IMG/VR virus record: IMGVR_UViG_3300010883_000025
Location: 1 to 63,260 of that record
Strand: one strand, 5' to 3'
DNA length: 63,260 nt
DNA from: a virus
Each line of letters starts with the position of its first letter. Position 1 is the first letter of the stretch. A program made the translations under genes and the position numbers. A model generated the notes under the pieces. It was not told where the DNA came from. It made no database searches and was given only the letters and a program-made list of their open reading frames with translations. Positions 8,221 to 54,445 of this stretch are shown one piece after another.

Positions 8221-8221
8221 T

Positions 8222-8228
8222 ATAGTTA
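8222..8228 (+). promoter_or_regulatory. ATAGTTA late-promoter-like motif before the second sheath gene
   Basis: ATAGTTA lies 27 bases before the ATG at 8256, in the short gap between the two sheath genes. It could give the second sheath protein its own late transcript. Confidence 0.35.
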
Positions 8229-8255
8229 AAAGAAGAATACAGGAGATTATTTCAA

Positions 8256-38949: not shown

Positions 38950-39960
38950 GTGTTAGTTCATTTAGATTACATTTGGGTGGATGGGTTTGAGCATCCATCA
39001 ATAAGGTCAAAAACAAAAGCAAGGGTTCTAACACCTGATGAAAATGGAGAAGTTCAATTGGACATTCCTGAATGGAATTTCGACGGTTCTTCAACGGGTC
39101 AAGCCGATACAGGGGAGTCTGAAAGGATACTGAAGCCAAAATCGATGTACCAAATTGCAGACAACCATTATGTCACCTTGTGCGAAGTATGTATGCCAGA
39201 TGCCGATCGTACCCCTCACCACTCAAATTATCGCGCTAAATTAAGAGAAGCAGTGGAAGAAACAGAGTCCACCAAAGAAATGTGGGTTGGGTTTGAACAA
39301 GAATATTTCTTTACGTCTGGTGGGAAGAATGTATTTTGGCCAGACAATGGAGAACCGGTTAAGGATTCTCGCTACTACTGTTCTTCTGGTGGTAGCGTAA
39401 AATACAGGAAATTGGTACGTGAGCATGCTTCTTTTTGTAACCAGGTAGGAGTAAGAGTTGTAGGGTATAATGCAGAAGTTGCACCTGGACAATGGGAATA
39501 CCAATGTTTTGGAGAAGATCCTGTCTCTGCATCTGATTCGCTATGGGTTAGTCGATATGTCTTAGAGCTTATGACAGAGGATGTTGAGCTTGGTATCGAC
39601 TGGAACCCAAAGCCACATCCTGGGTGGAATGGCTCTGGATGCCATGCTAACTTTTCTACAAAAAAAATGAGAGAAGAGGGTGGCGAAGAAGAGTTCCACC
39701 GGATTATTTCAAATATGGAGGCTCGTCATAATGAATCGATCTCCGAGTATGGGGAAGATAATGGCTTACGTCTAACAGGCGGATTCGAGACAGCTTCACT
39801 TAACCATTTTACTTATGGCATCGCGTCTCGAGATACATCTGTAAGAATACCAAACACAGTTATAGAAAATGACTGGAAAGGGTATCTCGAAGACCGCCGA
39901 CCATCATCAGGTTGTGACCCTTATCGTGTCGCATTACAGCTCTGCAAATTTGTTAAGTAG
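38950..39960 (+). CDS. glnII: Glutamine synthetase, type II (eukaryotic-like GSII)
   Basis: A 336-residue full-length GSII, joining ammonia to glutamate with ATP. Signature segments are all present: WNFDGSSTGQA, VGFEQEYFF, GYNAEVAPGQWEYQ, GSGCHANFST, GIASRDTSVRIP and LEDRRPSSGCDPY, covering the ammonium, metal and ATP sites. GTG at 38950 is the start, with SD AAGGGGGG and the upstream stop at 38947-38949. GSII occurs in eukaryotes and some bacteria such as rhizobia and actinomycetes, so transfer from a host is likely. In infection it could raise glutamine for nucleotide synthesis. The Tyr adenylylated in GSI is not part of GSII, so this copy would escape that control. Confidence 0.93.
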   Translation: MLVHLDYIWVDGFEHPSIRSKTKARVLTPDENGEVQLDIPEWNFDGSSTGQADTGESERILKPKSMYQIADNHYVTLCEVCMPDADRTPHHSNYRAKLREAVEETESTKEMWVGFEQEYFFTSGGKNVFWPDNGEPVKDSRYYCSSGGSVKYRKLVREHASFCNQVGVRVVGYNAEVAPGQWEYQCFGEDPVSASDSLWVSRYVLELMTEDVELGIDWNPKPHPGWNGSGCHANFSTKKMREEGGEEEFHRIISNMEARHNESISEYGEDNGLRLTGGFETASLNHFTYGIASRDTSVRIPNTVIENDWKGYLEDRRPSSGCDPYRVALQLCKFVK

Positions 39961-40400: not shown

Positions 40401-41108
40401 GTGAAAAGAATTGAGGTTTATAATGACGGTATTGGTGCCGTTGAGTACGTCGCATCCATGGGATCCGATCTAACAGTTGTAAACAGCGCTAGAGTCTCAT
40501 TTGGAAAGACTAAGGAAGAACTAGATGGAAAAGATAAAAAGCTTATTCGCTATCTTATTAATCATAGGCACACATCTACACTAGAGCATAATGTCATTAC
40601 ATTTCGTTTTATTGTACCCTTATTTGTACGTAGCCAGCACCATCGTCATAGAACATGGTCTTATAACGAAATCTCTCGTCGATACACCGACGTTGATATC
40701 CGTTTTTACGAGCCCAAGGAATTTAGAACCCAGCACAAGTCGAATCGACAGGCATCAAATATCGAAAAGAAGATTGATCCAGTCATCATTCCAGACCTCT
40801 CTGATACAGATATGGGACTCACTGCATCTCATTGTGTCGAACAACACCATAAGCTCTCTATGGGACTGTATAACAACCTGATGAAAGCAGGTGTATGTCG
40901 AGAACAAGCTCGAGGTGTGTTACCTCAAAATCTTTATTCAGAATATTATGGGACTGTAAATCTTAATAATTTACTTAAGTTTATAGGGTTACGTATGCAC
41001 GAGGGTGCGCAGTGGGAAATCCAGCAAATAGCCAGTGCGTGTCTTGAAATCGCAGAAGAAATCTGGCCTGAGACTATTACTGCTTATCGAGAAAATCGTA
41101 AGCTTTGA
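40401..41108 (+). CDS. thyX: Flavin-dependent thymidylate synthase
   Basis: A 235-residue ThyX. The signature RHR-x7-S is RHRTWSYNEIS, and LIRYLINHRHTSTLEHNVIT and GVCREQARGVLP are the other family blocks that bind FAD and dUMP. It makes dTMP from dUMP using methylene-tetrahydrofolate and NADPH, and leaves tetrahydrofolate. The start is GTG at 40401, directly after the thioesterase stop. The window also holds a ThyA-fold gene (47396). Because ThyX already covers dTMP synthesis, that second enzyme is free to have another role. Confidence 0.95.
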   Translation: MKRIEVYNDGIGAVEYVASMGSDLTVVNSARVSFGKTKEELDGKDKKLIRYLINHRHTSTLEHNVITFRFIVPLFVRSQHHRHRTWSYNEISRRYTDVDIRFYEPKEFRTQHKSNRQASNIEKKIDPVIIPDLSDTDMGLTASHCVEQHHKLSMGLYNNLMKAGVCREQARGVLPQNLYSEYYGTVNLNNLLKFIGLRMHEGAQWEIQQIASACLEIAEEIWPETITAYRENRKL

Positions 41109-41873: not shown

Positions 41874-42170
41874 ATGGAATCAACTTCTACATACACAATG
41901 GATGACACGACGATCGGTCACGTCGCCCAGTTACTTCAGCTTGCTATCTTAACTGGCACTGATATCATCGATCATTTTCGAAGCGCGCACTTTGCGGTCA
42001 GTGATGAGGGTATTATTTCTCTTCATCCAGAATACGCTGAAAACTTTGACAGTAACCTTCAGAAAATGTTAGCTACAGCCGCTGAGCAAGTCAATTCTAC
42101 TGATGACGAACTTTCTGATTCCGTATCTTCAGGCAAAGACTTTGCTATCACAGGCGCATCTTTTGAGTGA
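41874..42170 (+). CDS. Hypothetical protein
   Basis: A 98-residue acidic protein with strong SD (AAAAGGAGA) and its own promoter. The first 60 residues are helical (IGHVAQLLQLAILTGTDIID) and the last 30 are Ser/Asp-rich. No family is recognised. It is the first gene after a consensus promoter, so it is probably expressed early and well. Its stop overlaps the start region of the next gene. Confidence 0.6.
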   Translation: MESTSTYTMDDTTIGHVAQLLQLAILTGTDIIDHFRSAHFAVSDEGIISLHPEYAENFDSNLQKMLATAAEQVNSTDDELSDSVSSGKDFAITGASFE

Positions 42171-42537
42171 TAAGCTGCAAGAAATGTTTGCTTTGCGTGA
42201 AGAATTTATGCAAAAGATAAACAGCGTCATACCAGATGCCTATCCAGCATGGCCGGTAGATTTAAGCAAGAAGAAGAACCAAAGGGCTATTCGTGAATTT
42301 GCTTTTCGAGGTATGGAAGAGCTTTTTGAAGCGTTACTTCATTTGAAGAACTGGAAAGACCACAGGGAAGAAACGTACGGTGTACCTGAGTTTGATAGAG
42401 AAGAATTTTTAGAAGAAATGATTGATGCGTTCAATTATTTTCTTGCAATAATTGTACTTTCTGGTGTCGACCACAAAGAATTTTTTAATGCGTATGTAAG
42501 GAAACATGGGATTATCACTGATCGTTTGAATGCATAG
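42163..42537 (+). CDS. All-alpha NTP pyrophosphatase (dUTPase/dCTPase-like, MazG superfamily)
   Basis: Helical enzyme with the two metal-binding ExxE/ExxD motifs of dimeric dUTPases and T4 gp56: MEELFEALLHLKNWKDH, and FLEEMIDAFNYFLAI. It should hydrolyse a dNTP to dNMP and PPi. dUTP would protect against uracil; dCTP would keep unmodified cytosine out of DNA, as gp56 does in T4. The presence of a dCMP-hydroxymethylase-like gene makes dCTP attractive. The start is uncertain: TTG at 42163 gives a natural N-terminus (SDKLQEMFALREEFM); ATG at 42184 or 42103 are alternatives. Confidence 0.7.
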   Translation: MSDKLQEMFALREEFMQKINSVIPDAYPAWPVDLSKKKNQRAIREFAFRGMEELFEALLHLKNWKDHREETYGVPEFDREEFLEEMIDAFNYFLAIIVLSGVDHKEFFNAYVRKHGIITDRLNA

Positions 42538-42548
42538 TTAGATTTACT

Positions 42549-43142
42549 ATGCAAGCGCCCTCAAGAGTCATACGCAGAAAAATCCGGTTTCTACAATCTG
42601 AACTTCAGATGCTACAACATTATCATCTTCAAATAACTGAATTATTCGAAGACTATAAGTCCGAGTATTCACAAGACGTAGAATTTTTTATATCAAAAGC
42701 AAAAGAGGCGTTTGGGGATAAAGATATTCCTGAAGAATCAAATGAAGCCTCAGGATATAAATTCGAGGTTACGAAAGACGATGAGCAGTTTAGGGAGCAA
42801 AACAAAGAATGGTTTGCCGATGATAAATCAGAAAGTAATAAAAAGTCTGATGCTCCCGAATGGGCTAGAAAGCTGTTCAAGAAGATTGCGCTTATGACAC
42901 ATCCAGACAGAGTAAATGATGATGACCTACGAGTGACTCTTCAAAAGAGTTTTCTTCGTGCAAGCAAGGCTTTAGAAGATGGTAAGCTAGATGACCTCAT
43001 AGGCGTTGCTGTTGAGCTGAATTTAGATAGTGGTTTAGCTGATGAGTCATTGATTCCATTGCTCAACACAAAAATTAAATCATGTCGTGATGAAATTCAA
43101 GTAATAGAAGAACAGACGAGTGGCAATGGGGCGAGTCTTTAG
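42549..43142 (+). CDS. J-domain (DnaJ-like) protein
   Basis: A 197-residue protein. Residues about 104-150 (WARKLFKKIALMTHPDRVND, then SFLRASKALEDGKLDDLIGV) contain the HPD tripeptide between two helices that defines J-domains, which activate Hsp70 ATPase. The N-terminus is a helical coil (FLQSELQMLQHYHLQITELF) and the C-terminus a charged helix. It could recruit host DnaK (or HscA) to phage processes; similar HPD proteins are frequent in large phages but mostly untested. SD is weak. Confidence 0.75.
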   Translation: MQAPSRVIRRKIRFLQSELQMLQHYHLQITELFEDYKSEYSQDVEFFISKAKEAFGDKDIPEESNEASGYKFEVTKDDEQFREQNKEWFADDKSESNKKSDAPEWARKLFKKIALMTHPDRVNDDDLRVTLQKSFLRASKALEDGKLDDLIGVAVELNLDSGLADESLIPLLNTKIKSCRDEIQVIEEQTSGNGASL

Positions 43143-43144
43143 GC

Positions 43145-43252
43145 GTGCCTGATCTACGAGCTAAGCTATTATACACGCTTCTCTCTGACCGCGGCTTTCC
43201 ACTTTCGAAAGAACAAGCTTCTCAATTTATGACATCACGCGAATCTTCGTAA
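43145..43252 (+). CDS. Possible very small protein (35 aa)
   Basis: A GTG-initiated frame (MPDLRAKLLYTLLSDRGFPL and 15 more residues) fills the gap between two genes and its TAA overlaps the next ATG (TAATG). Tight packing suggests it is translated, but it is short and its SD is poor. Function is unknown. Confidence 0.4.
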   Translation: MPDLRAKLLYTLLSDRGFPLSKEQASQFMTSRESS

Positions 43253-43440
43253 TGCTACCTGGTAACATAGGTGTTATGATGGATGAACATGTAGGCATAG
43301 GAGATGATATGTCCAGCTATATACTTCATCCTGGCGATTCAGGTTTAGTAATATCAGTTGAGCAGGAAATTGTTTCGCTTTTGATAGCAGGACATATAGT
43401 CTACGTAGGACGAGAGTCAGTTGAGACATTAGAGGATTAG
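43252..43440 (+). CDS. Hypothetical small protein
   Basis: A 62-residue acidic protein (GNIGVMMDEHVGIGDDMSSY, then beta-type SGLVISVEQEIVSLLIAGHI). The ATG overlaps the preceding stop and the next gene begins one base after its stop, so it belongs to a chain of coupled small genes. The pattern of strands suggests a small beta fold. No family is recognised, and an internal ATG (43279 or 43282) could be the true start. Confidence 0.5.
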   Translation: MLPGNIGVMMDEHVGIGDDMSSYILHPGDSGLVISVEQEIVSLLIAGHIVYVGRESVETLED

Positions 43441-43441
43441 C

Positions 43442-43669
43442 ATGTCACCAGAAATTGCAAAAATAATTCAAGAAACGGTCCGTCAGGCGGGTGATGAGCT
43501 TAAAGGGAAACTACCCCCATCACCTCGCCATCCTAAGGGAAGAAATTCATACGCCCATCTTTACGAACGAATTAAATCCAGAATGGGTAGATCGTATAAA
43601 GACTGTGAAGACTATGAGGCTCCTCAAATCTTAGACCTGATAGAATATTATGTCAAAAATCCTTGCTAA
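43442..43669 (+). CDS. Hypothetical small basic protein
   Basis: A 75-residue protein with SD GAGG. It has a helical N-terminus (EIAKIIQETVRQAGDELKG), a Pro/His-rich linker (PPSPRHPKGRNSYAHLY) and a helical end with EAPQILDLIEYYV. It is the last gene before the polymerase promoter. It could be a small nucleic-acid-binding or accessory protein, but nothing in the sequence proves this. Confidence 0.55.
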   Translation: MSPEIAKIIQETVRQAGDELKGKLPPSPRHPKGRNSYAHLYERIKSRMGRSYKDCEDYEAPQILDLIEYYVKNPC

Positions 43670-43673
43670 ATAG

Positions 43674-43702
43674 TTGAAAATTACCCCTGACTGTTGTATA
43701 AT
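43674..43702 (+). promoter_or_regulatory. Sigma70-type promoter for the DnaE-like polymerase
   Basis: TTGAAA (43674-43679), 17 bases, TATAAT (43697-43702), 25 bases before the ATG at 43728. This is a full consensus -10 with a near-consensus -35. Confidence 0.85.
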
Positions 43703-43727
43703 CAATTAATCACACCAGGAGTTCTAT

Positions 43728-46700
43728 ATGCGCAAGTCACCACTTACTGCCCCGAGTAAGTTTATTTCCCTTCATTCACATGACGGGTTTTCTACTTTCG
43801 ATGGTCTTGGTTATCCACAAGAACATATCGATTTTGTAATTGAGAATGGAATGGACGGCTGGTGCCTCACAAATCATGGTCACATGAATTCTTTTGGTCA
43901 TGCTTTCTTACATGCAGAGAAGATTCAGAAGCGCGGTGGTAATTTTAAGTTTGTGCCAGGTTGCGAGATGTACGTCCACCCTGATCTTGATGCATGGAAG
44001 CTTGATATGGAAATTCGTCAGGCTGCGAAGAAGGGTGATAAGGAAGCTCTTCACGTTCTTCGAGCCCAACGTGAAGCAATTGCAACACCCCTAACCGCGG
44101 TTGTTGATGGTGATGATGAGATTCTTGACATCGGAAAGGAAGAAGCAGGTCTGACAATCGAGAATGAAGAAGAGACAAAGTCTTCTAAATTCTACGACCC
44201 CATCAAGCGCCGCCACCACCTTGTCGTTCTTCCAAAGACCAGCGAAGGTCTCCAACGCTTATTTCATCTTGTCAGTCGAGGTTATAGAGAGGGGTTCTAT
44301 CGCTTTCCTCGTATTGACTATAAGATGTTAAGGGAAGCCGCTGAAGGAGGTCATCTGATGGTCTCTACAGCATGTATTGGCGGCCCAATCGCTTATGAGG
44401 TATTTCGACATGCGCAGAATGTTGAGTTTGATAATTTGAGTCATAAGCTTATGAATGATCCTTCTTTTAACGAGAAGGTCATGACCGGCGTCGGTAACGC
44501 TTATCAAGGTCTGGTAGACGCTGTAGGAATTGATGATGTTTGTCTTGAGATACAATTCAATAAACTTCCAGCGCAGCACCTTGTCAACCGCGCGATTATC
44601 GAATTTGCGAATAGCAACGGTCTAAATGACAAGTTAGTTGTAACTACCGATTCTCACTATGCTCGTCCTGAACACTGGAGAGAGCGTGAGCTATACAAAA
44701 AGCTTGGTTGGTTGAACTATCGAGATATGGATCCCTCAAAGCTTCCGCAATCAAGAGAAGAGCTTAAGTGTGAATTATATCCCAAGAATGCTCAACAGCT
44801 TTGGGATACGTACCTTGAAAGTACTGAGGGCATGCCATTCTACGATGATGAAGTTGTAAAAGCAGCGATGGAGTTACCTCATCAAATTGTCCATGAAAAG
44901 ATCTCTGCGATTGTTCCTGATCGTTCGATGAAGCTACCGTCGTACGTTGTTCCAGAGGGTATGACAGATGATAAGGCTTTGCTTGAAGCTTGTAAGAAGG
45001 GATTAGTTTACCGCGGTCTAACAGACGACCCAAAGTATATTGAGCGGATAAAGCATGAGTTAAAGATTATTAAGGATAAGAACTTCTCTCGGTACTTCTT
45101 AACGATGGAAGCGATCATTGAGATTGCTAAGAAAGCAATGCTTGTCGGTCCTGGCCGCGGCTCTGCCGCCGGAAGTCTAGTTGCTTACGTCCTCAGGTTG
45201 ACCGATGTCGATCCATTCGAGTACGACCTTATGTTCGGTCGTTTTCTAAATCCATCTCGTGAAGGCGCGCCAGATATCGATACTGATGTAGGCGACCGAG
45301 ATCTGCTTATTAACATGATGAAAGATAAGTGGGGCGATGAGAATATCATTCCAATCTCTAACTACAACACATTCAAGCTTAAGTCTCTTGTTAAAGATAT
45401 TTCTCGCTTCTATGGGATCCCATTCAACGAAGTGAATAAGGCGCTGGCACCAGTAGAGAATGATGTAAAGCGTGCAGTATTTAAGCAAGGGACCGATAAG
45501 AACTTGTTTGTGTTATTGTACGAAGATGCGATAAAGCATTCAAAGACGTTCAGGTCATTTATTGAGGCCCATCCAGAAGTAGCCGCGCCGATTCAAGTTC
45601 TGTTCAAACAAAACAAGGCTCTTGGTCGTCATGCTGGGGGTTGTATCGTCGCAGAGGATATAGCTGAAAGGATGCCGCTTATTAAAGCTCGTGGTGAACT
45701 CCAGACCCCATGGGCTGAAGGTATGAACTATAAGCATCTTGAAACATTTGGATGGATTAAGTTTGACCTTCTTGGTCTTGAAACCCTTCGTGTCATCCAG
45801 CGAACTATTGAACTAATCCTCCAGCGAAAAGAAGGTATTGAAAATCCAACATTCGAGCAAGTATACGAGTGGTTTAACTCCAACATGGATCCTAAGGTTC
45901 TTGATATGGACGACCAGCATGTGTATAATCATGTGTACGCTTCAGGTCGGTGGGCCGGTATCTTTCAGTTAGCTGGTAAGGGAGCACAAAATCTCTTTAA
46001 GAAAGCGAAGCCAAAGAGTATTATTGATATTGCTACACTGACCTCTATCTATCGTCCTGGGCCTCTGACAGCAAAAGTTGATAAGTTATATATCAACGCA
46101 AAGAACAACCCAACAACGATTGATTACGGGCACCCATTGATTAAGGAAGTGCTAGAAGAAACTTATGGCTTGATCGTCTTCCAGGAGCAGATCATGAAGC
46201 TTTGTTCCGTAGTCGCCGGTTTCCCTGAGGAGGAAACTGATACTGTTCGACGAAGTATTATGAAGCGTAAAGCATCAGAAGCCGCAGAATCGTTAGCTAA
46301 AGCCCGAGCTATTAAGGATCAGTTTGTTGCTGGCTCTGTTAAGAATGGTGTTGACCGCCAGCTTGCGGATGACTTATACGAAAAGATTCTATTCTTTGCG
46401 GGCTATGGTTTCAATAAGTCTCATGCAGTTTGTTATGCTATCGATTCGTACTATTGCGCATGGCTTCTTACATACTTTGAAGAAGAATGGCTCTGTGCTT
46501 ATCTTGAAGCTATGTCAGGTAATGATAAGAAGCGTGCCAAGGCTTTCGCTGAGGTGAAGGCTCTCGGTTATAGAGTTATGCCCCTTGATATTAATTACGC
46601 TACAAAAAGCTGGACTATTCTTGAAGGTAAAAAGTTTATGCCATCTCTTCTATCATGCAAAGGAATTGGTACCGCAGCTATTGATGAGCTCGTTACAAAT

Positions 46701-47348
46701 CGACCATATAAAAGCGTTGATGACTTGTTGTGGACAGACGAAGGGAAATGGCGACATTCAAAGTTCAATAAGCGTGCAATGGAAGCGTTGATTAACATTA
46801 GGGCATTTGAGTCTATGAATTTGGTTGGTAAAGATAGGACATTCGAAAGTTATAAGCACATGCACGAAGTTATTATTGGTAGACAAAATGACATTAAGAA
46901 GTGGACAAAGCGTGATCCAGAACGAGGTCAGAACAACTTCAAGGAAGCCCTACTTGAGACAGAGGGGACTGGTCACTGGTCACGTCGTGAGATGGTGGAG
47001 AATAGTGTAAAGCACTTTGGGTCCTTTAACGCATCCACCTTGATTAGCGAAACCGTGCAAGAGAGACTAGCATCAAAAGAGATCATGTGTATTGATGAGA
47101 TTGATGAACAAGGTCATGATGTATATTGGTTCTTGGTGTCTGACGTAAAAGAGAAGCTTACAAAAAATAAGAAGCCCTACTTGCTCGTTACAGCGGCTGG
47201 CTTAGACGGTAAGAACTTTAGAATGTTTTGCTGGGGATGGGATGGTCAAACAGAGCTACCTCTCTACAGCTTGTGCGTAGCAGAAATCAAGAAAAATGAT
47301 TTCGGATACCAAACTTCTATGAGTAAAGTTAAGCTTCTTCGTATATGA
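43728..47348 (+). CDS. dnaE: Family C DNA polymerase (DNA polymerase III alpha, DnaE-like)
   Basis: A 1206-residue replicative polymerase. The N-terminal PHP domain keeps metal ligands in SLHSHDGFSTFDG, LTNHGHMNS, PGCEMYV and TDSHY, so it may be an active phosphoesterase. The palm has GPGRGSAAGSLVAY and PDIDTDVGD (two catalytic Asp) and FDLLGLETLR (third Asp). Fingers include IYRPGPL, VFQEQIMKL and YGFNKSHAVCYA. The C-terminal part has helix-hairpin-helix and OB-like regions. A complete DnaE is unusual in a T4-type phage, where family B enzymes are the rule. With its own promoter it is probably the main replicase; no beta clamp gene is seen in the window. Confidence 0.95.
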   Translation: MRKSPLTAPSKFISLHSHDGFSTFDGLGYPQEHIDFVIENGMDGWCLTNHGHMNSFGHAFLHAEKIQKRGGNFKFVPGCEMYVHPDLDAWKLDMEIRQAAKKGDKEALHVLRAQREAIATPLTAVVDGDDEILDIGKEEAGLTIENEEETKSSKFYDPIKRRHHLVVLPKTSEGLQRLFHLVSRGYREGFYRFPRIDYKMLREAAEGGHLMVSTACIGGPIAYEVFRHAQNVEFDNLSHKLMNDPSFNEKVMTGVGNAYQGLVDAVGIDDVCLEIQFNKLPAQHLVNRAIIEFANSNGLNDKLVVTTDSHYARPEHWRERELYKKLGWLNYRDMDPSKLPQSREELKCELYPKNAQQLWDTYLESTEGMPFYDDEVVKAAMELPHQIVHEKISAIVPDRSMKLPSYVVPEGMTDDKALLEACKKGLVYRGLTDDPKYIERIKHELKIIKDKNFSRYFLTMEAIIEIAKKAMLVGPGRGSAAGSLVAYVLRLTDVDPFEYDLMFGRFLNPSREGAPDIDTDVGDRDLLINMMKDKWGDENIIPISNYNTFKLKSLVKDISRFYGIPFNEVNKALAPVENDVKRAVFKQGTDKNLFVLLYEDAIKHSKTFRSFIEAHPEVAAPIQVLFKQNKALGRHAGGCIVAEDIAERMPLIKARGELQTPWAEGMNYKHLETFGWIKFDLLGLETLRVIQRTIELILQRKEGIENPTFEQVYEWFNSNMDPKVLDMDDQHVYNHVYASGRWAGIFQLAGKGAQNLFKKAKPKSIIDIATLTSIYRPGPLTAKVDKLYINAKNNPTTIDYGHPLIKEVLEETYGLIVFQEQIMKLCSVVAGFPEEETDTVRRSIMKRKASEAAESLAKARAIKDQFVAGSVKNGVDRQLADDLYEKILFFAGYGFNKSHAVCYAIDSYYCAWLLTYFEEEWLCAYLEAMSGNDKKRAKAFAEVKALGYRVMPLDINYATKSWTILEGKKFMPSLLSCKGIGTAAIDELVTNRPYKSVDDLLWTDEGKWRHSKFNKRAMEALINIRAFESMNLVGKDRTFESYKHMHEVIIGRQNDIKKWTKRDPERGQNNFKEALLETEGTGHWSRREMVENSVKHFGSFNASTLISETVQERLASKEIMCIDEIDEQGHDVYWFLVSDVKEKLTKNKKPYLLVTAAGLDGKNFRMFCWGWDGQTELPLYSLCVAEIKKNDFGYQTSMSKVKLLRI

Positions 47349-47395
47349 TTAGCTTGGTATAAAAAGTCTACACTTATTAACAAATGGAGTAAAAA

Positions 47396-48427
47396 TTGCA
47401 TATTGGCACCTATCAATCATTTACGCATTGCTACCTTTCCTTGGTAAGACATGTTTACGAAAGCCCTCAGTTCGAAGCCTCACCTCGCGGTCAGAAGGTT
47501 AAAGAAATTATCGGTGCATCTTTCACTATACTGAATCCTCGTGATCGAATTCCGTATGTCGCCGGCCGAAAGTTTAGTATAACGTATATGGTGGCTGAGC
47601 TGCTTTGGTATCTTTCTGCAAATGACAAGACTGAATGGATTTCAAAATACTCTAGTTTCTGGAAAGACATTTCTGACGATGGTATAACAGCTAACTCTGC
47701 ATACGGAGCAAGATTATTTAAGCCGCATTCTAAGATAGCGCAAGGTCGCTTGGACCAATGGGCCTATGTCGTAGATGAATTAAAAAAGGATCCTGATTCG
47801 CGTAGAGCAATCATGCATATCCGTGTTCCAGATGACAGCGTAGATGCCAAGCTTGATGTGCCCTGTACATTAGCACTTCAGTTCTTTATTAGAGACGGTA
47901 AGCTACATCAGGTTGTAAACATGAGAAGCTCTGATGTAATTTTTGGAATTGCTTATGACATTCCAGCATTCACAGTATTTCAGGAGATATTAGCAAATGA
48001 GCTTGGTGTAGAGCTTGGTACATACACTCATACGAGTAATTCTTTACATATCTATGAGCGTCATTTTGACATGGCTGAAAAGATACTAAAGACTTCAAAT
48101 GTCAATAAGTCGAAGTTCGAACTTTGGAAAAAGAATGGTGCAATGCCACCTATTTTATGCTCTTCTAGAAATGAGATGAGCTATTGGGTGAATAGACTCT
48201 CTGAATGTGAGGAAGATATATCGCAAGAAACATCACCCGCTGGAGTGTTACGCTCATTTCATAGACAATTCGCTTTTCCAACACCTTTTTCTGCGATATG
48301 GCATGACTGGGGTCTTGTACTAGTTGCAAATCAACTTCGGAAGTTAGGCAAGAAGAATGACGCAGCTAAAGCAATGGAAAATTTAAAGTTTAGTGGTTAT
48401 GGATTTAACGCGAGGAGAAGTAAATGA
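47396..48427 (+). CDS. gp42: dCMP hydroxymethylase-like enzyme (ThyA fold, T4 gp42-like)
   Basis: A 343-residue thymidylate-synthase-fold enzyme. Cys157 (DVPCTLALQF) is the nucleophile, Arg136-Arg137 (PDSRRAIM) and VVNMRSSDVIFG bind phosphate, NSLHIYERHF binds sugar. In thymidylate synthases the residue after the 'G-x-P-F' loop is Asn and recognises uracil; here it is Asp188 (GIAYDIP), the residue that makes T4 gp42 specific for dCMP. VVNMRSSDVIFG is almost identical to the T4 gp42 segment. So the likely product is 5-hydroxymethyl-dCMP, for modified DNA. TTG at 47396 is the start with SD TGGAG. A dUMP-specific enzyme is the alternative but is less likely with ThyX present. Confidence 0.8.
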   Translation: MHIGTYQSFTHCYLSLVRHVYESPQFEASPRGQKVKEIIGASFTILNPRDRIPYVAGRKFSITYMVAELLWYLSANDKTEWISKYSSFWKDISDDGITANSAYGARLFKPHSKIAQGRLDQWAYVVDELKKDPDSRRAIMHIRVPDDSVDAKLDVPCTLALQFFIRDGKLHQVVNMRSSDVIFGIAYDIPAFTVFQEILANELGVELGTYTHTSNSLHIYERHFDMAEKILKTSNVNKSKFELWKKNGAMPPILCSSRNEMSYWVNRLSECEEDISQETSPAGVLRSFHRQFAFPTPFSAIWHDWGLVLVANQLRKLGKKNDAAKAMENLKFSGYGFNARRSK

Positions 48428-49536
48428 GCGAATATGATTATCTGATTGTCGGTGCCGGTATTTTTGGTGCAACATTTGCACGAGAAATGACAGATGCTGG
48501 AAAAAAATGTCTTGTTATTGACCGAAGAGAGCACATCGGCGGTAACGTTTATTCTGAAAAACGTAGTGGTGTTGATGTTCATGTTTATGGTGCACACATC
48601 TTTCACACAAACAATGATCGTATTTGGGATTACGTAAATCGATTTGCGAAGTTCAATAACTACGTTAATAAGCCGAAGGTTCGATATAACGAGAGAATTT
48701 TTTCTTTTCCAATTAATCTAATGACGCTTCACCAACTTTGGGGTGTAATGACTCCAGCTGAGGCAGAAGCAAAACTAGCAGAAGTCCGTATCCCATGTGA
48801 GAATCCTGATAATCTTGAAGACTGGATTTTGTCACAAGTAGGCCGAGAGGTTTATGAGACGTTCATCAAGGGTTATACAATGAAGCAGTGGCAAAGGGAT
48901 CCCAAAGAATTACCGGCTTCCATTATTAAAAGACTTCCAATACGAATGGTCTTCGAGGAGAATTATTTCTTCGATAAGTATCAAGGTATTCCAATCGATG
49001 GCTATACCTCAATGGTTACCAATATGCTAGAAGGCGTTAAGGTCGAAACAGGAATTGATTACTTCGACAATAAAGATCACTGGAACAGTATGGCAGATAA
49101 GGTGGTCTTCTCCGGAAAGATCGATGAGTATTTCGGGTTTCAACATGGCGAACTAGAATATCGTACTTTAAGATTTGAGCATGAAGAACTTGAGGGCGAT
49201 TTCCAGGGAAACGCTGTAGTGAACTATACACACCCTGATGTACCGTTTACTCGTATCGTTGAGCACAAGCACTTTTTACCTGATACGGCATCTAAGATAC
49301 CAAATACTATTGTAACGAGAGAGTATTCTGATGAGTATACACGTGGTAAGACGCCATATTATCCCATCAATAATGACCGTAATAATTCGATGTATAAAAA
49401 ATATGCAATGATGGCCCGTGATCAATCAGACGTAATTTTTGGTGGAAGGCTAGCTGAGTACAAGTATTATGATATGCATCAAGTAATTGGTTCTGCTCTT
49501 GTAAAAGCTAAACGTGAGCTTGAAAATAACGTATAA
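48424..49536 (+). CDS. glf: UDP-galactopyranose mutase
   Basis: A 370-residue FAD enzyme. The N-terminus (YDYL, then IVGAGIFGATFAREM and GGNVYSEKRSGV) is the FAD-binding Rossmann motif; KGYTMKQWQRDPKELPASII, FNNYVNK and RTLRFEHEEL are family blocks lining the UDP-sugar site. It interconverts UDP-galactopyranose and UDP-galactofuranose; related enzymes can handle UDP-arabinopyranose. It overlaps the hydroxymethylase-like gene by four bases and is followed by a glycosyltransferase, so it probably makes a furanose donor for a phage glycan or DNA sugar. It contains the next promoter in its last codons. Confidence 0.92.
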   Translation: MSEYDYLIVGAGIFGATFAREMTDAGKKCLVIDRREHIGGNVYSEKRSGVDVHVYGAHIFHTNNDRIWDYVNRFAKFNNYVNKPKVRYNERIFSFPINLMTLHQLWGVMTPAEAEAKLAEVRIPCENPDNLEDWILSQVGREVYETFIKGYTMKQWQRDPKELPASIIKRLPIRMVFEENYFFDKYQGIPIDGYTSMVTNMLEGVKVETGIDYFDNKDHWNSMADKVVFSGKIDEYFGFQHGELEYRTLRFEHEELEGDFQGNAVVNYTHPDVPFTRIVEHKHFLPDTASKIPNTIVTREYSDEYTRGKTPYYPINNDRNNSMYKKYAMMARDQSDVIFGGRLAEYKYYDMHQVIGSALVKAKRELENNV

Positions 49537-49548
49537 ATTAGTTATAAT
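49520..49548 (+). promoter_or_regulatory. Sigma70-type promoter inside the end of glf
   Basis: TTGAAA (49520-49525), 17 bases, TATAAT (49543-49548), beginning inside the glf coding end and 25 bases before the ATG at 49574. It should boost the glycosyltransferase and the genes after it. Confidence 0.75.
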
Positions 49549-49573
49549 CAATAGTAACTAACATGGAGAAATA

Positions 49574-50629
49574 ATGAGAGTACTTTATAGTTTTTGGGGG
49601 TTCATCACTCCTCTTGAAAAGAATAGCATCGTCAATACCCCTGATGGAGAGCGTGGAAACCGCGTAGACTGGGTTAACGAATTGTTGTCTCGTGGTCATA
49701 CCCCAATCCAGCTTCAGCAAATGCGCGATGATGAGCAATATCCAGGCGTAGAATATGATGATAAAGAATACCCAGAAGGTGATATTCTATATGTCGAATG
49801 GCGCTGGCCTACGTATAAGAATTCTGGCGTTAATCCTGATGAGCCAGACTATAACCGTCAATGCGCCGTCCTTGACTACTATCATGAACAAGGCATTCCT
49901 ATTATTATTGTTGATGGGGATCTTAAAATGACTCCTGAGGAAGAGCTCCGCTGGCCCAATGCGATTCTTGCAGATGCATGCGTAGCCCCCCAGCACCAGA
50001 CCCGAAAGCGAATTACAATTCCTTGGTGTAATTATATGAAGCGCTATTTTGATCCGGTAGAGTACTCGTACAACTATACTTACGTTGGAAATAATTACGA
50101 ACGTGAAGACCCATTCGCGAAGTATTATACGGCACCCAGTGCAGGTCTTAGATACGCTGGTATCCAGACTATGATTTATGGAAACTGGCTAAGCAAGTCA
50201 CCCGAAAGAATTGACCCAGCGACCCTATTGACTCAAACGCCGCATGTCGCGTTTGGACCCCGTTTGGCGTACAAAGATATTTTTGGTGTATTAAACTCTT
50301 CGATTGCTGTAACGCATATCACAAAGCCATCATACACACCTTACGGTAACATCACTGGAAGATTTTTTGAAGCTATCAAAAGTAATGTACCTGCACTAGT
50401 ACCGATAGAATTCCAGCATGCGGTTCCCGTTGGTTTGGCTGATAAGTCACTCCTTGTTGAAAGCACTGACGATGTTATTGAAAAAGTTAAGTGGCTTGCA
50501 ACTCTTAATGCCACTGAACGGAAGGCGCTTGTAGATGCGCAGGAGGAGGCTCTAAGGACTGTAATCGATCCCCGGCCTGAGTATAGGGCTGATCTATTGG
50601 AACACATTCTGGGGGATTATCAAGCATGA
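49574..50629 (+). CDS. GT-B glycosyltransferase
   Basis: A 351-residue protein with two-domain GT-B character. The N-terminus (RVLYSFWGFI, then NTPDGERGNRVDWV and LLSRGH) is the acceptor-side Rossmann fold; the second half (FGVLNSSIAVTHITKPSYTP, then GNITGRFFEAIKSNVPALVP) is the donor-side nucleotide-sugar site with its conserved Glu. There is no signal peptide or membrane segment, so it works in the cytoplasm, as expected for a DNA glycosyltransferase or for intracellular glycan precursors. Linkage to glf and to the hydroxymethylase-like gene suggests transfer of a furanose sugar to hydroxymethylcytosine. Donor and acceptor are inferred. Confidence 0.75.
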   Translation: MRVLYSFWGFITPLEKNSIVNTPDGERGNRVDWVNELLSRGHTPIQLQQMRDDEQYPGVEYDDKEYPEGDILYVEWRWPTYKNSGVNPDEPDYNRQCAVLDYYHEQGIPIIIVDGDLKMTPEEELRWPNAILADACVAPQHQTRKRITIPWCNYMKRYFDPVEYSYNYTYVGNNYEREDPFAKYYTAPSAGLRYAGIQTMIYGNWLSKSPERIDPATLLTQTPHVAFGPRLAYKDIFGVLNSSIAVTHITKPSYTPYGNITGRFFEAIKSNVPALVPIEFQHAVPVGLADKSLLVESTDDVIEKVKWLATLNATERKALVDAQEEALRTVIDPRPEYRADLLEHILGDYQA

Positions 50630-51150
50630 TGATTGCGTTTATAGGACCTGACATGACAGGCAAGTCAAATATTGCAGCTGAATTATCCAAGCAAACAGGC
50701 ATTCCTGTTTTCAAAAACACTGGTGAATGGAAGACTCAGCTTGATAGCCCAGATTATTTTCTCAACCTGCTACGCTATGGTGGCCCATTTTTAATGGACT
50801 TTATGAGACAAACGAACGCTAGCGTTATTCTTGACAGATTTTATCCATGTGAGCTCATCTATTCGCAGGCTTTTGATAGAGAAACTGATATGAATGCTAT
50901 TAGCTGGATGGACACGAACTTCGCAGAGGCTGGTGGAAAATTTATTATCTGCTTAAGAAAAGATTACTCGGGATTGGTGGATGATCAATATCCTGACCAA
51001 TTACCAACGTCTATGTTAAAAAGACTAGACTCTTTATACCGTGCATTTCAGGACACTACAGAATGTGAATGTCTTGTTCTAGAAACAGATGATATGAATT
51101 TGAACAATCAGCTAGAAAAGATTAAAATATTTCTAAAGATTAATGATTAA
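50626..51150 (+). CDS. P-loop deoxynucleotide kinase (dTMP kinase-like)
   Basis: A 174-residue kinase. The P-loop is FIGPDMTGKSN, DRFYPCELIYSQ is the DRx motif of thymidylate-kinase-type enzymes, and KFIICLRKDY is the strand before a short lid. It should phosphorylate a dNMP to dNDP. In T4 the gp1 kinase phosphorylates hydroxymethyl-dCMP, dTMP and dGMP; here the gene sits in the modification cluster, so hydroxymethyl-dCMP or a glycosylated derivative are candidate substrates. It overlaps the glycosyltransferase by four bases. Specificity cannot be read from the sequence. Confidence 0.75.
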   Translation: MMIAFIGPDMTGKSNIAAELSKQTGIPVFKNTGEWKTQLDSPDYFLNLLRYGGPFLMDFMRQTNASVILDRFYPCELIYSQAFDRETDMNAISWMDTNFAEAGGKFIICLRKDYSGLVDDQYPDQLPTSMLKRLDSLYRAFQDTTECECLVLETDDMNLNNQLEKIKIFLKIND

Positions 51151-51166
51151 AAAAAGGAGAAATTGT

Positions 51167-52171
51167 ATGCAACCGCGTAAAGCTTTGGTAACTGGATGTT
51201 GTGGGTTTATTGGAAGTCATGTATCCCGACAGCTCATTGAGGCTGGATGGTATGTAGAGGGAGTTGATGATCTCTCGAATGGGGATCTTTCTACGCTTGA
51301 AGATCTTCAACATCGTACTGTGACAGAGGGAATGCTGCACTTATATGATGAGCAAGCCGACAATCCTACTTCCGGAGAATTGTTGGTTGTAACAGCTGAC
51401 TTTGCGTCCGCAGCTATTTTGTCGAGGGTAGCAACCGGTAGTTACGATGTGATTTTCCATCTTGCGGCAAACCCAAGGGTTGAATACTCTGTTAAATACC
51501 CAGCCTTGACGACACATACAAATGTGCAAAAGACCATTGAATTAATGTCTGCTGCCATCAATAAAATTGATAGGTTTGTCTTCGCGTCTTCATCTGCCTG
51601 CTACGGTGAGGTAACAAGCCTTCCAACAACTGAAGAAGAATCGAAAGACCCGACTTCCCCATACGGGCTTCAAAAGTTGGTTGTTGAACAATTCGCTGAG
51701 ATGTATAATCGTCTCTATGACATGGACTTTGTAGCGTTAAGGTTCTTCAACGTATACGGACCTGGCCAGCTTGGCGATTCTCCTTACTCGACTGCTGTCG
51801 CTGCGTGGTGCACTCGTATCAAGAATGGTGACCCGCTACGGAGCGATGGAGACGGTGAACAAACAAGGGACATGGTATATGTCAAGGACGTTGCATCTGC
51901 AATGATAACAGCAGCTGAGCACTCTAAATCTTTAGGGTTCCAAGTGTATAATGTTGCAACTGGCGAATCTGTGTCTAATAACCAGATCTTAGAGACATTG
52001 AAAGAGCATTTTCCCGATCTAAGTGTTACCCACGCTCCAGAGAGGGCAGGAGATGTAAAGCATACCTTGGGTGATATAAATAAAATTAGCGAGGACCTTA
52101 ATTGGTTTCCAAAAAAGCAATTTTGGGATGGATTAAGAACAACGCTTCAATGGTGGGAGTTGGTTGATTAA
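51167..52171 (+). CDS. NAD-dependent sugar-nucleotide epimerase/dehydratase (extended SDR)
   Basis: A 334-residue Rossmann enzyme. VTGCCGFIGSHVSRQLIEAG binds NAD, FASSSACYGE holds the catalytic Ser/Thr region, and SPYGLQKLVVEQ holds the Tyr-x3-Lys pair. ALRFFNVYGPGQ and GDGEQTRDMVYVKDV are typical of UDP-glucose/UDP-galactose 4-epimerases. ATG at 51167 is chosen because the AAAGGAGA SD (51153-51160) fits it; an upstream in-frame ATG at 51143 would include the SD. It could supply UDP-galactose to the mutase, or the pentose equivalent. It overlaps the cupin gene by one base. Confidence 0.88.
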   Translation: MQPRKALVTGCCGFIGSHVSRQLIEAGWYVEGVDDLSNGDLSTLEDLQHRTVTEGMLHLYDEQADNPTSGELLVVTADFASAAILSRVATGSYDVIFHLAANPRVEYSVKYPALTTHTNVQKTIELMSAAINKIDRFVFASSSACYGEVTSLPTTEEESKDPTSPYGLQKLVVEQFAEMYNRLYDMDFVALRFFNVYGPGQLGDSPYSTAVAAWCTRIKNGDPLRSDGDGEQTRDMVYVKDVASAMITAAEHSKSLGFQVYNVATGESVSNNQILETLKEHFPDLSVTHAPERAGDVKHTLGDINKISEDLNWFPKKQFWDGLRTTLQWWELVD

Positions 52172-52611
52172 TGAATAGATGCATTTGGACAGGCAAATCA
52201 GAAGCAACGGAAAAACCGTGGGGCTATGAGGTTGAATGGAATGGTATCTTTCATGGTAAAGAAATCCATCTTCGTGCTAACCATCGAACAAGCCTTAAAT
52301 TCCATAAAGGAAAGGAAGAGGTCTTGTATATTCAGAACGGTGAAATCAATGCTGAAATAGCTGATGAACGTCATTTCGATGACCCGGGTCAGTATCCGTC
52401 AAGGGTAATTAGTCTTACTAAAGGTGAAATTATGAATGTTCAAGCTGGTTGTGCATATAGACTGACTGCAATTCGCGATAGTGTGATATTTGAAATATCT
52501 TCTGGTTTTTCTTCTGACCCCCCTATTCGTCTAGAGGACGATTATGGCAGAAGGGTAGACACCAGTGACCAATATACCTACACCCATCAGAAAAAAGAAA
52601 ATGATAATTAA
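52171..52611 (+). CDS. Cupin-fold sugar enzyme (mannose-6-P-isomerase-like)
   Basis: A 146-residue single-domain cupin. EKPWGYEVEWN is the 'KPWG' opening of mannose-6-phosphate isomerase-type cupins; TSLKFHKGKEEVLYIQNGEI is motif 1 with the metal-binding His/Glu, and GCAYRLTAIRDSVIFEISSG is motif 2. Small proteins of this type isomerise or epimerise sugars. Its ATG overlaps the epimerase stop (TAATG), so both act in one pathway, perhaps providing the sugar for the mutase and glycosyltransferase. Exact substrate is unknown. Confidence 0.75.
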   Translation: MNRCIWTGKSEATEKPWGYEVEWNGIFHGKEIHLRANHRTSLKFHKGKEEVLYIQNGEINAEIADERHFDDPGQYPSRVISLTKGEIMNVQAGCAYRLTAIRDSVIFEISSGFSSDPPIRLEDDYGRRVDTSDQYTYTHQKKENDN

Positions 52612-52631: not shown

Positions 52632-53486
52632 ATGAGTTCAATGGACCCCAACGCGGTTAACGTAGTCATTTATCACGCCGACTGTACCGACGGGTTTGGT
52701 GCTGCTTATTCAGCATGGAAACAGCTTGGAAATCGAGCAGAGTATTATGCGTGTAAACACGGCACCCCGCCGCCAGATGTAAAAGGGAAGAATGTCGTTA
52801 TTTTAGACTTCTCCTATGATAAAACAACAACAAAAAGAATGATAAAGAAAGCAAAAAATCTCTTAATCATCGATCACCACAAATCAGCGATGGTTGAGCT
52901 TCATGATATATCAAATACACATTTCGATATGACTAAAAGTGGAGCAATACTTTCATGGGAGTATTTCCATCCAGGAAAAGAGCCCCCAAAGTTTATTAAG
53001 TACATTCAAGATAGAGATCTTTGGAAGTGGGAGCTTGAATACTCTAAGGAGTTTAGCGCTGCATTTGATATGGTCCCCTTTGAGTTTGAAGAATTTGAGA
53101 AGTTTGAAGATGATTCAGTCTTTGATGATGCGTGCAAACGGGGTTCTTATATCTTAGCGTATAGTAAGACTGTTGTCAAGAAGGTTTGTGAAAAAGCGCA
53201 ACCTCGTGTAATGAGTGGTAAAGAAGTCTTAGTAGTAAACGCTTCTCACTGGATGTCAGAGATTGGTGCTCGATTGGCCCCTGATTGTGATTTTGCAGTA
53301 ATTTGGTTTTGGGATCATGAAGCAAAGATAACGAAGGTTAGCTTACGCGCTTTTCATGAAAGCGTGGACGTATCGGAGATATCCAAGAAATTTGGTGGCG
53401 GTGGCCACAAGAAAGCAGCAGGATTTACTTTACCTAAGGAGAAACACATTGAAGAACTTTTTGACACAATCGACCCCGAGGTATGA
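52632..53486 (+). CDS. DHH/DHHA1 family phosphoesterase
   Basis: A 284-residue protein. HADCTDGFGAAYSAW, VILDFSY, LIIDHHKSA (the DHH motif) and YIQDRDLWKW are the metal-binding blocks; the C-terminal GGGGHKKAAGFTLP is the DHHA1 substrate-binding domain. Relatives degrade short oligonucleotides (NrnA type) or cyclic di-nucleotides. In a phage it could recycle nanoRNA or cut host signalling nucleotides such as c-di-AMP or other cyclic oligonucleotides. The assignment to a substrate is open. The MT-A70 gene begins inside its last 38 bases. Confidence 0.88.
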   Translation: MSSMDPNAVNVVIYHADCTDGFGAAYSAWKQLGNRAEYYACKHGTPPPDVKGKNVVILDFSYDKTTTKRMIKKAKNLLIIDHHKSAMVELHDISNTHFDMTKSGAILSWEYFHPGKEPPKFIKYIQDRDLWKWELEYSKEFSAAFDMVPFEFEEFEKFEDDSVFDDACKRGSYILAYSKTVVKKVCEKAQPRVMSGKEVLVVNASHWMSEIGARLAPDCDFAVIWFWDHEAKITKVSLRAFHESVDVSEISKKFGGGGHKKAAGFTLPKEKHIEELFDTIDPEV

Positions 53487-54042
53487 CGTTGTCTACCTTG
53501 ATCCACCATGGGATTATAAAGGCCAGTTACAGCATTCCAAGCCTGGAGCTGGTGACTCAGGTGGTGCTAGCAAGCATTATGGTACACTCAAGCTAAAGCA
53601 GCTTAAGCAATTCCCGATGCAGCAACTCTTGAATGAAGATGCTCTTGTTTTTATGTGGGTAACGAATCCTCATCTTGACCAAGGTCTTGACCTACTAAAA
53701 AGTTGGGGCCTAAAATATTCTACTGTTGCGTTTGTCTGGAATAAGATGCGCGTTAATCCCGGCTTTTACACAATGTCACAGTGCGAGTTATGCATCGTTG
53801 GTAAAAACGGAAAGATCCCACGTCCTCGAGGGGCAAGAAATGTACGACAATACTTGGAGCACATGAGGGAACAACACAGCAAGAAGCCTGATGAAGTCCG
53901 CTCTAGAATTGAACAAATGTTTCCAGATCAAAGTAAGGTTGAGCTCTTTGCAAGACACAAAAATCCAGGATGGTCCACTTGGGGTGATGAGGTTGATAGC
54001 TGCGAAGATCTTAAGAGGTACTTAAATGAGCTCGGATGGTAG
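53449..54042 (+). CDS. MT-A70-type adenine methyltransferase
   Basis: A 197-residue SAM-dependent methyltransferase. RYDVVYLDPPWDYKG contains the catalytic DPPW of the N6-adenine family, ALVFMWVTNPHLDQG and AFVWNKMRVNPGFYTMSQCE are the following strands, and KVELFARHKNPGWSTWGDE is the typical MT-A70 end. The start is TTG at 53449, with SD AAGGAG at 53436-53441, inside the DHH gene. It probably methylates phage DNA (m6A) and could protect it from restriction, or it may act on RNA. No partner endonuclease is seen. Confidence 0.88.
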   Translation: MKNFLTQSTPRYDVVYLDPPWDYKGQLQHSKPGAGDSGGASKHYGTLKLKQLKQFPMQQLLNEDALVFMWVTNPHLDQGLDLLKSWGLKYSTVAFVWNKMRVNPGFYTMSQCELCIVGKNGKIPRPRGARNVRQYLEHMREQHSKKPDEVRSRIEQMFPDQSKVELFARHKNPGWSTWGDEVDSCEDLKRYLNELGW

Positions 54043-54445
54043 ACCAGCGTGGGATGAGATCTGGATGGGCTTTGCTCATTCCATTTCTCGTAGATCTTAT
54101 GACCCTCGATACCGCGTAGGTGCTGTTATAGTTTCCGATAGGAACACGCAGGTCCTTGCCGTCGGTTACAACGGTAATTATTCTGGTGGTCCAAATGAAG
54201 TTGAATCGACCGAGCCAGGAAATTCAGGAATGATTCATGCAGAGATTAACGCTTTGCTAAAATGCGACTATAATATCCGCGGAAGAAAAATCATGTATGT
54301 AACCTTAAGCCCATGCAAGATGTGTGCCAAAGCAATGATCAATGGCGGAATAGAGGAAGTGGTTTATGATGAAGAATATAGGGATATGTCCGGTGTCAAC
54401 CTACTTAAGTCCGCTGGAGTCGCAGTCAGGCGCTATACAACTTAG
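54026..54445 (+). CDS. dCMP deaminase
   Basis: A 139-residue zinc enzyme of the cytidine/deoxycytidylate deaminase fold. HAEINALL provides His and the catalytic Glu; TLSPCKMCAKAMINGG provides the two Cys zinc ligands. It makes dUMP from dCMP, feeding ThyX. It overlaps the MT-A70 gene by 17 bases. In T4 the counterpart (cd) balances dTMP and hydroxymethyl-dCMP supply, and the same balance would apply here between ThyX and the dCMP-hydroxymethylase-like enzyme. Confidence 0.92.
   Translation: MSSDGRPAWDEIWMGFAHSISRRSYDPRYRVGAVIVSDRNTQVLAVGYNGNYSGGPNEVESTEPGNSGMIHAEINALLKCDYNIRGRKIMYVTLSPCKMCAKAMINGGIEEVVYDEEYRDMSGVNLLKSAGVAVRRYTT

Follow-up and report, generated by a model that had tools for sequence, protein, structure and literature searches.

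We propose that the virus represented by a 63,260-nucleotide IMG/VR record (the whole of which is here called the window) replaces cytosine in its virion DNA with 5-hydroxymethylcytosine (hmC) bearing a furanose sugar. This is our preferred account of a gene cluster in which every gene named in a preliminary description of the DNA was found, and we give it a probability of about 0.6. Its parts differ in firmness. Judged from sequence, hmC in the viral DNA is very probable and its glycosylation is probable; that the sugar is a furanose is favoured by a smaller measure, and galactofuranose as the specific sugar is a tentative choice falling a little short of even, ranking as the likeliest sugar with arabinofuranose second. 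We regard the cluster as a new form of T4-type cytosine glycosylation, and infer that its UDP-galactopyranose mutase (Glf) serves DNA rather than another target.

A predicted dCMP hydroxymethylase and candidate nucleotide-pool partners

The enzyme encoded at 47396..48427 (343 amino acids, TTG start; this and all other features are on the plus strand) belongs to the general Pfam family of thymidylate synthases (Thymidylat_synt, 1.4e-38), and its closest match among solved structures by sequence is the CMP hydroxymethylase MilA (E 2.4e-48). Both facts would suit a virus with unmodified DNA whose enzyme is a CMP hydroxymethylase or a thymidylate synthase of the ordinary kind, but the residues argue for a T4 gp42-like enzyme. 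All 12 of the T4 residues compared are kept (E60, S94, Y96, R123, R124, D145, C148, S169, D171, D179, H216 and Y218 correspond to E68, S101, Y103, R136, R137, D154, C157, S178, D180, D188, H218 and Y220), including the catalytic Cys and Glu (C157, E68), the phosphate-binding Arg pair (R136, R137) and the water-positioning set (S101, Y103 and D154, equivalent to T4 Ser94, Tyr96 and Asp145). The base-reading position is D188 (T4 D179), which is Asn in thymidylate synthases, and Asp154 stands where those enzymes have Leu. Published structures link Asp179 to cytosine and the Ser/Arg pair to the deoxy substrate. The preliminary description had drawn its case for a cytosine hydroxymethylase from Asp188 and from a segment close to that of T4 gp42, and both observations hold, with VVNMRSSDVIFG and the T4 segment VVNMRSNDVVFG identical at 10 of 12 positions. 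Identity as the thymidylate synthase ThyA is contradicted by Asp188 together with a TIGR03284 score of 96.1 bits, under the equivalog cut-off of 108.35, and identity as a CMP hydroxymethylase of the MilA/BcmA kind by Arg136 and Ser178 in place of Lys133 and Ala176. Moreover, the flavin-dependent thymidylate synthase ThyX is encoded separately (40401..41108; TIGR02170, 165 bits against a cut-off of 87.9), as expected from the earlier suggestion of a distinct dTMP source. A dCMP hydroxymethylase, predicted to be specific for cytosine and for deoxy- rather than ribo-CMP, is thus strongly supported, and the thymidylate synthase or CMP enzyme is highly improbable. The full T4 residue set is also kept in the hydroxymethylase homologues linked to the glycosyltransferase described below, the most distant one excepted.

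Several neighbouring genes could manage the nucleotide pool. A MazG-like all-alpha NTP pyrophosphohydrolase (42103..42537; phrog_12184, 1.1e-15; PF01503 at 2.4e-4, barely over the cut-off) carries a metal motif, EExxE...EExxD, that is invariant in 11 relatives; its profile found no match in the PDB, and it is a candidate dCTPase in the role of T4 gp56. The start previously given for the cluster, 42163, falls inside this open reading frame. A dCMP deaminase lies at 54026..54445 (phrog_174, 1.2e-47), and a DnaE-type DNA polymerase III alpha subunit (43728..47348; tblastn to phage DnaE-like polymerases, 27%, 4e-80) is directly upstream of the hydroxymethylase, a polymerase of this type adjoining the cluster in relatives too. 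The P-loop nucleotide kinase at 50626..51150 (phrog_761 thymidylate kinase, 1e-6) is present in every complete relative within the conserved family. Its profile matches YorR best in the PDB (2axp, 2.8e-8) and also deoxynucleoside kinases, T4 gp1 not being among the matches, and it is probably the hydroxymethyl-dCMP kinase.

The mutase, the glycosyltransferase and putative sugar-supply genes

The product of 48424..49536 exceeds the cut-offs for UDP-galactopyranose mutase (TIGR00031, 373.8 bits against 303.75; Pfam GLF, 260 against 26.3) and aligns with the mutase 1i8t at E 2.9e-126, which supports a predicted interconversion of UDP-Galp and UDP-Galf. The start of this gene overlaps the hydroxymethylase stop codon (ATGA). 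In the window's clade the two genes are translationally coupled, Glf sitting between the hydroxymethylase and the glycosyltransferase. Overlaps occur at 4 junctions across the run of hydroxymethylase, Glf, glycosyltransferase, kinase, SDR and cupin genes.

The GT-B glycosyltransferase (GT; 49574..50629) appears to be a remote relative of the T4 DNA beta-glucosyltransferase (BGT). Its AF2 model (pLDDT 85) has T4 BGT as best VIA structural match (Z 21.9, other GT-B enzymes lying about 1 Z unit lower), and T4 BGT is also the best match of its sequence profile (E 2.3e-5). D116, R177, R263 and E266 correspond to the catalytic Asp and the UDP-binding residues of T4 BGT (D100, R195, R269 and E272), the D100-D116 pairing coming from a remote alignment. 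The Pfam T4-Gluco-transf model (PF09198) does not match, and PF13524 does so only below its cut-off. Taken with its genomic linkage, given below, the protein looks like the DNA glycosyltransferase that the preliminary description had suggested. It has no strongly hydrophobic segment. No matches were found by tblastn against 50,697 phage records, and no relatives by a pattern-based genome scan, which weak relatives could escape, of 84,980 bacterial and archaeal species. A Glf-linked gene of Aeromonas phage 25 was compared as a possible relative of the window GT, with a negative outcome; that gene is related to one beside a hydroxymethylase in another locus, L022.

Sugar supply probably involves the SDR encoded at 51143..52171, a nucleotide-sugar 4-epimerase-type enzyme (Pfam Epimerase, 6.9e-51) with a YGLQK motif, whose PDB relatives are mostly 4-epimerases and whose GalE score of 166 bits is under the equivalog cut-off; by sequence it would furnish UDP-Gal or UDP-Ara to Glf. 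The small protein that follows (52171..52611) is modelled as a cupin fold (AF2 pLDDT 90). It matches no Pfam or NCBIfam model, its top VIA matches include CapF within one broad tie, and its role in sugar supply is putative.

Together, these enzymes suggest the following route. The MazG-like enzyme and the deaminase would drain dCTP and dCMP, and dCMP would be hydroxymethylated by the 47396 enzyme, the step with strong support from residues. The 50626 kinase and host kinases might then raise hydroxymethyl-dCMP to the triphosphate for incorporation by the DnaE polymerase. In parallel, the SDR would 4-epimerise a host UDP-sugar, in the simplest case UDP-Glc to UDP-Gal, and Glf would contract the ring to give UDP-Galf; here the enzyme classes are supported and the substrates presumed. 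Finally, the BGT-like GT would move the furanose onto the hydroxymethyl group in DNA, an acceptor that we infer from the fold of the GT, its catalytic residues and its strict linkage to the hydroxymethylase. Such a decoration would be expected to shield the DNA from host nucleases.

Recurrence in uncultured relatives and cultured phages

Among the 34 IMG/VR loci with this GT family, the hydroxymethylase lies no more than 4.3 kb from the GT in 33, and the remaining locus is truncated; gene order varies and the linkage is kept. Since many IMG/VR contigs carry this set of genes, in several orders, a chance grouping is excluded. The sugar genes around the core are variable: Glf and an epimerase, UDP-xylose synthase and an epimerase, all three, or a eukaryote-type mutase that adjoins the most distant GT and hydroxymethylase, with the result that two unrelated mutase types stand beside members of the window's GT family and a hydroxymethylase. 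UDP-xylose synthase replaces Glf in some loci and accompanies it in others: locus L083 has a UDP-glucuronate decarboxylase (9e-96 to human UXS1) along with Glf, SDR, GT and hydroxymethylase, and L017 has a UDP-glucuronate decarboxylase with the same SDR family as the window. We consider it evenly balanced whether the following holds as a whole: that a fixed core of dCMP hydroxymethylase, BGT-like transferase and kinase, with swappable sugar-nucleotide modules setting the hmC sugar (galactofuranose, arabinofuranose or other), forms an exchangeable cassette in an uncultured family of DnaE-polymerase phages, and that furanosyl DNA had a separate origin in such phages as ATCCB.

The link between Glf and the hydroxymethylase is not a general law. 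L103, L104, L106 and L107 have Glf with no convincing hydroxymethylase (the thymidylate synthase-like matches in the L103 record are weak and partial), and outside the window's family Glf occurs within 8 kb in 1 of 64 hydroxymethylase loci (L131). Close relatives with Glf fall in a single clade and are therefore non-independent observations.

The tie between the mutase and the modification genes, drawn in the preliminary description, is supported by phages unrelated to one another in which a mutase again accompanies genes for a hydroxymethylase and a glycosyltransferase. Lactobacillus phage ATCCB (MK504445) encodes, one after another, a hydroxymethylase of the D type, a glucosyltransferase of family PF09198 and Glf, annotated only as thymidylate synthase, beta-glucosyltransferase and mutase, and so pairs a dCMP hydroxymethylase, a T4-type GT and Glf independently of the window. 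Its Glf belongs to another clade, no SDR or cupin is annotated adjacent, and its GT gave no BLASTP alignment to the window GT, which is thus tied to BGT through profile and fold only. Agrobacterium phage Atu_ph04 likewise combines Glf, a D-type thymidylate synthase-fold enzyme, a dNMP kinase and a GT in a single genome, and its DNA resists nine restriction enzymes (PMC6630229); its genes, however, are scattered and its hydroxymethylase-like enzyme has Phe at the catalytic Glu site.

Competing readings and known hmC systems

Could the sugar be a pyranose, such as galactose or arabinopyranose made by the SDR alone, with Glf serving something else? Close relatives with 57-61% identical GTs share the kinase, SDR and cupin and have no Glf nearby or in the records searched whole, so a furanose donor is not a strict requirement of the GT family. 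Against this stand the coupled position of Glf in the window clade, the two mutase types and the repetition of the trio in ATCCB, and we consider a pyranose unlikely. Distinctly less probable is that hmC occurs in the DNA while Glf, GT, SDR and cupin act on a surface glycan, making or altering it so as to mask receptors or exclude superinfecting phages. Cell-surface galactofuranose is the role of most Glf enzymes, and the authors of the Atu_ph04 study assigned its Glf to the cell wall (PMC6630229). Some phage Glf genes do sit in glycan-type clusters with no adjoining hydroxymethylase, so that Glf by itself is non-diagnostic; the GT, however, resembles T4 BGT, lacks a strongly hydrophobic segment, accompanies a hydroxymethylase wherever the locus is complete, and had no relative in the scan of bacteria.

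Within the furanose account itself, the SDR may be a UDP-xylose 4-epimerase and Glf may convert UDP-arabinopyranose to UDP-arabinofuranose. L083 and L017 offer gene combinations of this kind and RB69 offers a precedent, arabinosyl-hmC (PMC6024577), but neither the window nor its Glf-bearing relatives have a clear decarboxylase of their own, so UDP-xylose would need a host source. We judge this variant somewhat unlikely and prefer galactofuranose on hmC.

In the literature searched, the cytosine sugars of phages are glucose, arabinose and one unidentified pentose, and a mutase-made furanose on DNA is not described. If our reading is true, it would be a chemically distinct, acid-labile DNA decoration that may escape type IV nucleases and glycosylases tuned to glucose; phage Glf genes, commonly taken as cell-wall genes, would gain a new role, and the locus would be a source of new transferases that attach furanoses to DNA. 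The question is directly testable in cultured phages that have this gene trio, with ATCCB and Atu_ph04 as surrogates.

The window resembles T4 (gp42, gp56, gp1, alpha-GT and beta-GT) in the dCMP hydroxymethylase active site, the candidate dCTPase and dNMP kinase and the BGT-like GT near the hydroxymethylase. T4 differs in using host UDP-glucose (PMC6024577) and in a pathway with no mutase, epimerase or cupin, while the window GT falls outside the Pfam BGT model and the window has a DnaE polymerase and obtains dTMP through ThyX. RB69 likewise combines hmC with sugar-nucleotide genes of the phage's own and a transferase of the GT-B class. Where the window has an SDR and Glf, RB69 has ORF53_52c as its candidate sugar gene, and no mutase is mentioned (PMC6024577). 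Shewanella phage Thanatos, which has pentosyl-cytosine, shares the hydroxymethylase, dCTPase, dCMP deaminase and phage sugar genes; there a UDP-xylose pyrophosphorylase activates the sugar, and neither a mutase nor an epimerase is named (PMC12838424).

Hydroxymethylase operon and predicted cytosine specificity

We propose that this phage carries DNA with furanosyl-5-hydroxymethylcytosine (hmC). The window is a viral entry of IMG/VR, 63,260 bases long. The genes of cytosine hypermodification listed in the preliminary description are all present: the hydroxymethylase (47396-48427), UDP-galactopyranose mutase (Glf, 48424-49536), GT-B glycosyltransferase (GT, 49574-50629), kinase (50626-51150), 4-epimerase-type SDR (51143-52171) and cupin (52171-52611) form a head-to-tail array in which 4 of the 5 junctions overlap (for instance by ATGA at hydroxymethylase/Glf and GT/kinase), as expected for a single translationally coupled operon. 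Up to 8 kb away, further genes encode ThyX, a MazG-like pyrophosphohydrolase and dCMP deaminase. This operon structure, along with the enzyme classes and active-site residues, is established at the level of sequence; from the same genes we infer the substrates of the kinase, pyrophosphohydrolase and SDR.

The hydroxymethylase had also been described as T4 gp42-like with a cytosine-type Asp, which is borne out by alignment with T4 gp42, the enzymes of ATCCB and phage G, MilA and one true thymidylate synthase (TS). Every T4 residue checked is kept (Glu60, Ser94, Tyr96, Arg123, Arg124, Asp145, Cys148, Ser169, Asp171, Asp179, His216 and Tyr218, T4 numbering), including Asp179, which recognises cytosine in the T4 enzyme, and Ser94, Tyr96 and Asp145, which catalyse hydroxymethylation (PMC6400193). 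The ribose preference of MilA comes from Lys133 and Ala176 and is reversed by an Arg/Ser pair (PMC5175136); the window enzyme has Arg136 and Ser178 at these positions, so its residues indicate deoxy-CMP as the substrate, despite MilA being the closest PDB sequence (2.4e-48). The cytosine Asp is found in 29 of 29 distinct homologues surveyed, and the full T4 set in all but two, from viral loci L021 (Arg124 to Gln) and L084 (Glu60 to Asp, Ser94 to Gly, Asp145 to Asn). The phage DNA would probably contain hmC.

Two other genes lie nearby. A glutamine-synthetase-like gene with a GTG start (38950-39960), between genes read as an amidase and a thioesterase, is retained in several relatives (L002-L006, L010). 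An MT-A70 family adenine methyltransferase (53356-54042, 1.3e-25), between a DHH/DHHA1 phosphoesterase and dCMP deaminase, occurs in the window clade only and is possibly a second DNA modification.

The glycosyltransferase and its linkage to hydroxymethylases

Protein-family scans of the GT were nearly silent (PF13524 only, below cut-off), and a 12-sequence GT profile searched against all PDB sequences found T4 DNA beta-glucosyltransferase (BGT) as the sole plausible relative (2.3e-5). The AlphaFold model (pLDDT 85) also aligns best with BGT (Z 21.9 over 305 residues), the best unrelated GT-B enzyme reaching Z 20.8 and T4 alpha-GT Z 19.6; Foldseek alone ranks several GT-B enzymes above BGT, so the predicted fold is supportive of this kinship, not exclusive to it. 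The profile alignment pairs R177, R263 and E266 with R195, R269 and E272, the UDP-binding residues of BGT, and D116 with its catalytic Asp100; all four GT residues are invariant across 27 distinct family members. By its PDB title, 1nzd is a BGT D100A mutant structure. The acceptor of the GT would presumably be hmC.

A GT profile scan matched 34 viral loci, and in all but L068, whose contig stops short of the expected position, a hydroxymethylase lies within 4.3 kb of the GT. Gene order varies (hydroxymethylase-Glf-GT-kinase-SDR, GT-kinase-hydroxymethylase-SDR, kinase-GT-hydroxymethylase-SDR, or UXS-Glf-kinase-GT-SDR-hydroxymethylase, UXS being UDP-xylose synthase), so the linkage survives rearrangement. 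Two more distant relatives, in L137 and L141, likewise adjoin hydroxymethylases, and no GT relative was found in bacterial or archaeal genomes (one genome per species, 84,980 species). As judged from these contigs, the GT-hydroxymethylase linkage is strict. In L141, a CxxxCxxC radical-SAM-like gene (5826-6710) sits between kinase and GT with the hydroxymethylase adjoining, a hint of further base modification.

Exchange of sugar genes and the likely sugar

In gene content, sugar modules are exchanged around this core. The window clade (close relatives with Glf beside hydroxymethylase and GT) has Glf, SDR and cupin; L019, L020, L067 and L069-L073 lack Glf and carry just the SDR and cupin; in L017 and L075 the epimerase is accompanied by a UDP-xylose-synthase-type SDR; and L083 combines Glf and the epimerase with a UDP-glucuronate decarboxylase (9e-96 to human UXS1). 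The phage contig L084 encodes a eukaryote-type UDP-galactopyranose mutase (7979-9262, 1.2e-20 to 4dsg) alongside kinase, GT and hydroxymethylase. In a Glf tree, the L083 enzyme lies outside the window-clade enzymes. The simplest reading is repeated recruitment of a mutase to supply this transferase. At the sugar-module position of L018 (6813-8392) and L080 (7724-9474) stand Gfo/Idh/MocA or DAO-type oxidoreductases and short SDRs, making other sugars likely there.

No separate decarboxylase was found in the window or in fully searched Glf-bearing relatives, where matches were the known SDRs and, in one relative's record (G007), other SDRs; the shortest route would therefore run from host UDP-Glc through UDP-Gal to UDP-Galf. 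For L083, arabinofuranose is the better guess. The DNA of this phage would probably carry a furanose, galactofuranose being the likeliest candidate, and this decoration may be protective.

In the searchable literature, from which subscription papers are largely absent, we found no paper joining UDP-galactopyranose mutase, phage and hydroxymethylcytosine and no description of furanosyl DNA, and we claim novelty for that literature only. Arabinosyl-hydroxy-cytosine, going by a citation in PMC13216743, is the subject of a 2025 paper outside it.

UDP-galactopyranose mutase in unrelated phages

In Lactobacillus phage ATCCB, consecutive genes encode a D-type hydroxymethylase, an enzyme matching the Pfam T4-Gluco-transf family (9e-22) and Glf. 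Seven Rhizobiaceae-type phages (L041, L044, L045, L047-L050) combine Glf with a TS-fold enzyme that has the cytosine Asp and an unusual active site (Phe at catalytic Glu60, Asn at Asp171); the DNA of one of them, Atu_ph04, withstood nine restriction enzymes (PMC6630229). Only two Glf records gave no match, a Streptococcus prophage (Glf at the prophage end) and an unverified contig. In L103 (IMGVR_UViG_3300017917_002969), Glf lies in a phage glycan-like cluster (glycosyltransferase-like genes, two SDRs) with no adjacent hydroxymethylase, so phage Glf is not always linked to DNA.

The hydroxymethylase of Aeromonas phage 25 is T4-type and keeps every residue, and the Glf of this phage adjoins a gene resembling a hydroxymethylase neighbour in L022. 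Straboviridae generally bear hmC, so this case alone is weak evidence. The two neighbours, L028:8469-9545 beside the Aeromonas phage 25 Glf and L022:10658-11755 directly after the hydroxymethylase, share 28% identity (2e-44), match no Pfam family and are candidate DNA glycosyltransferases.
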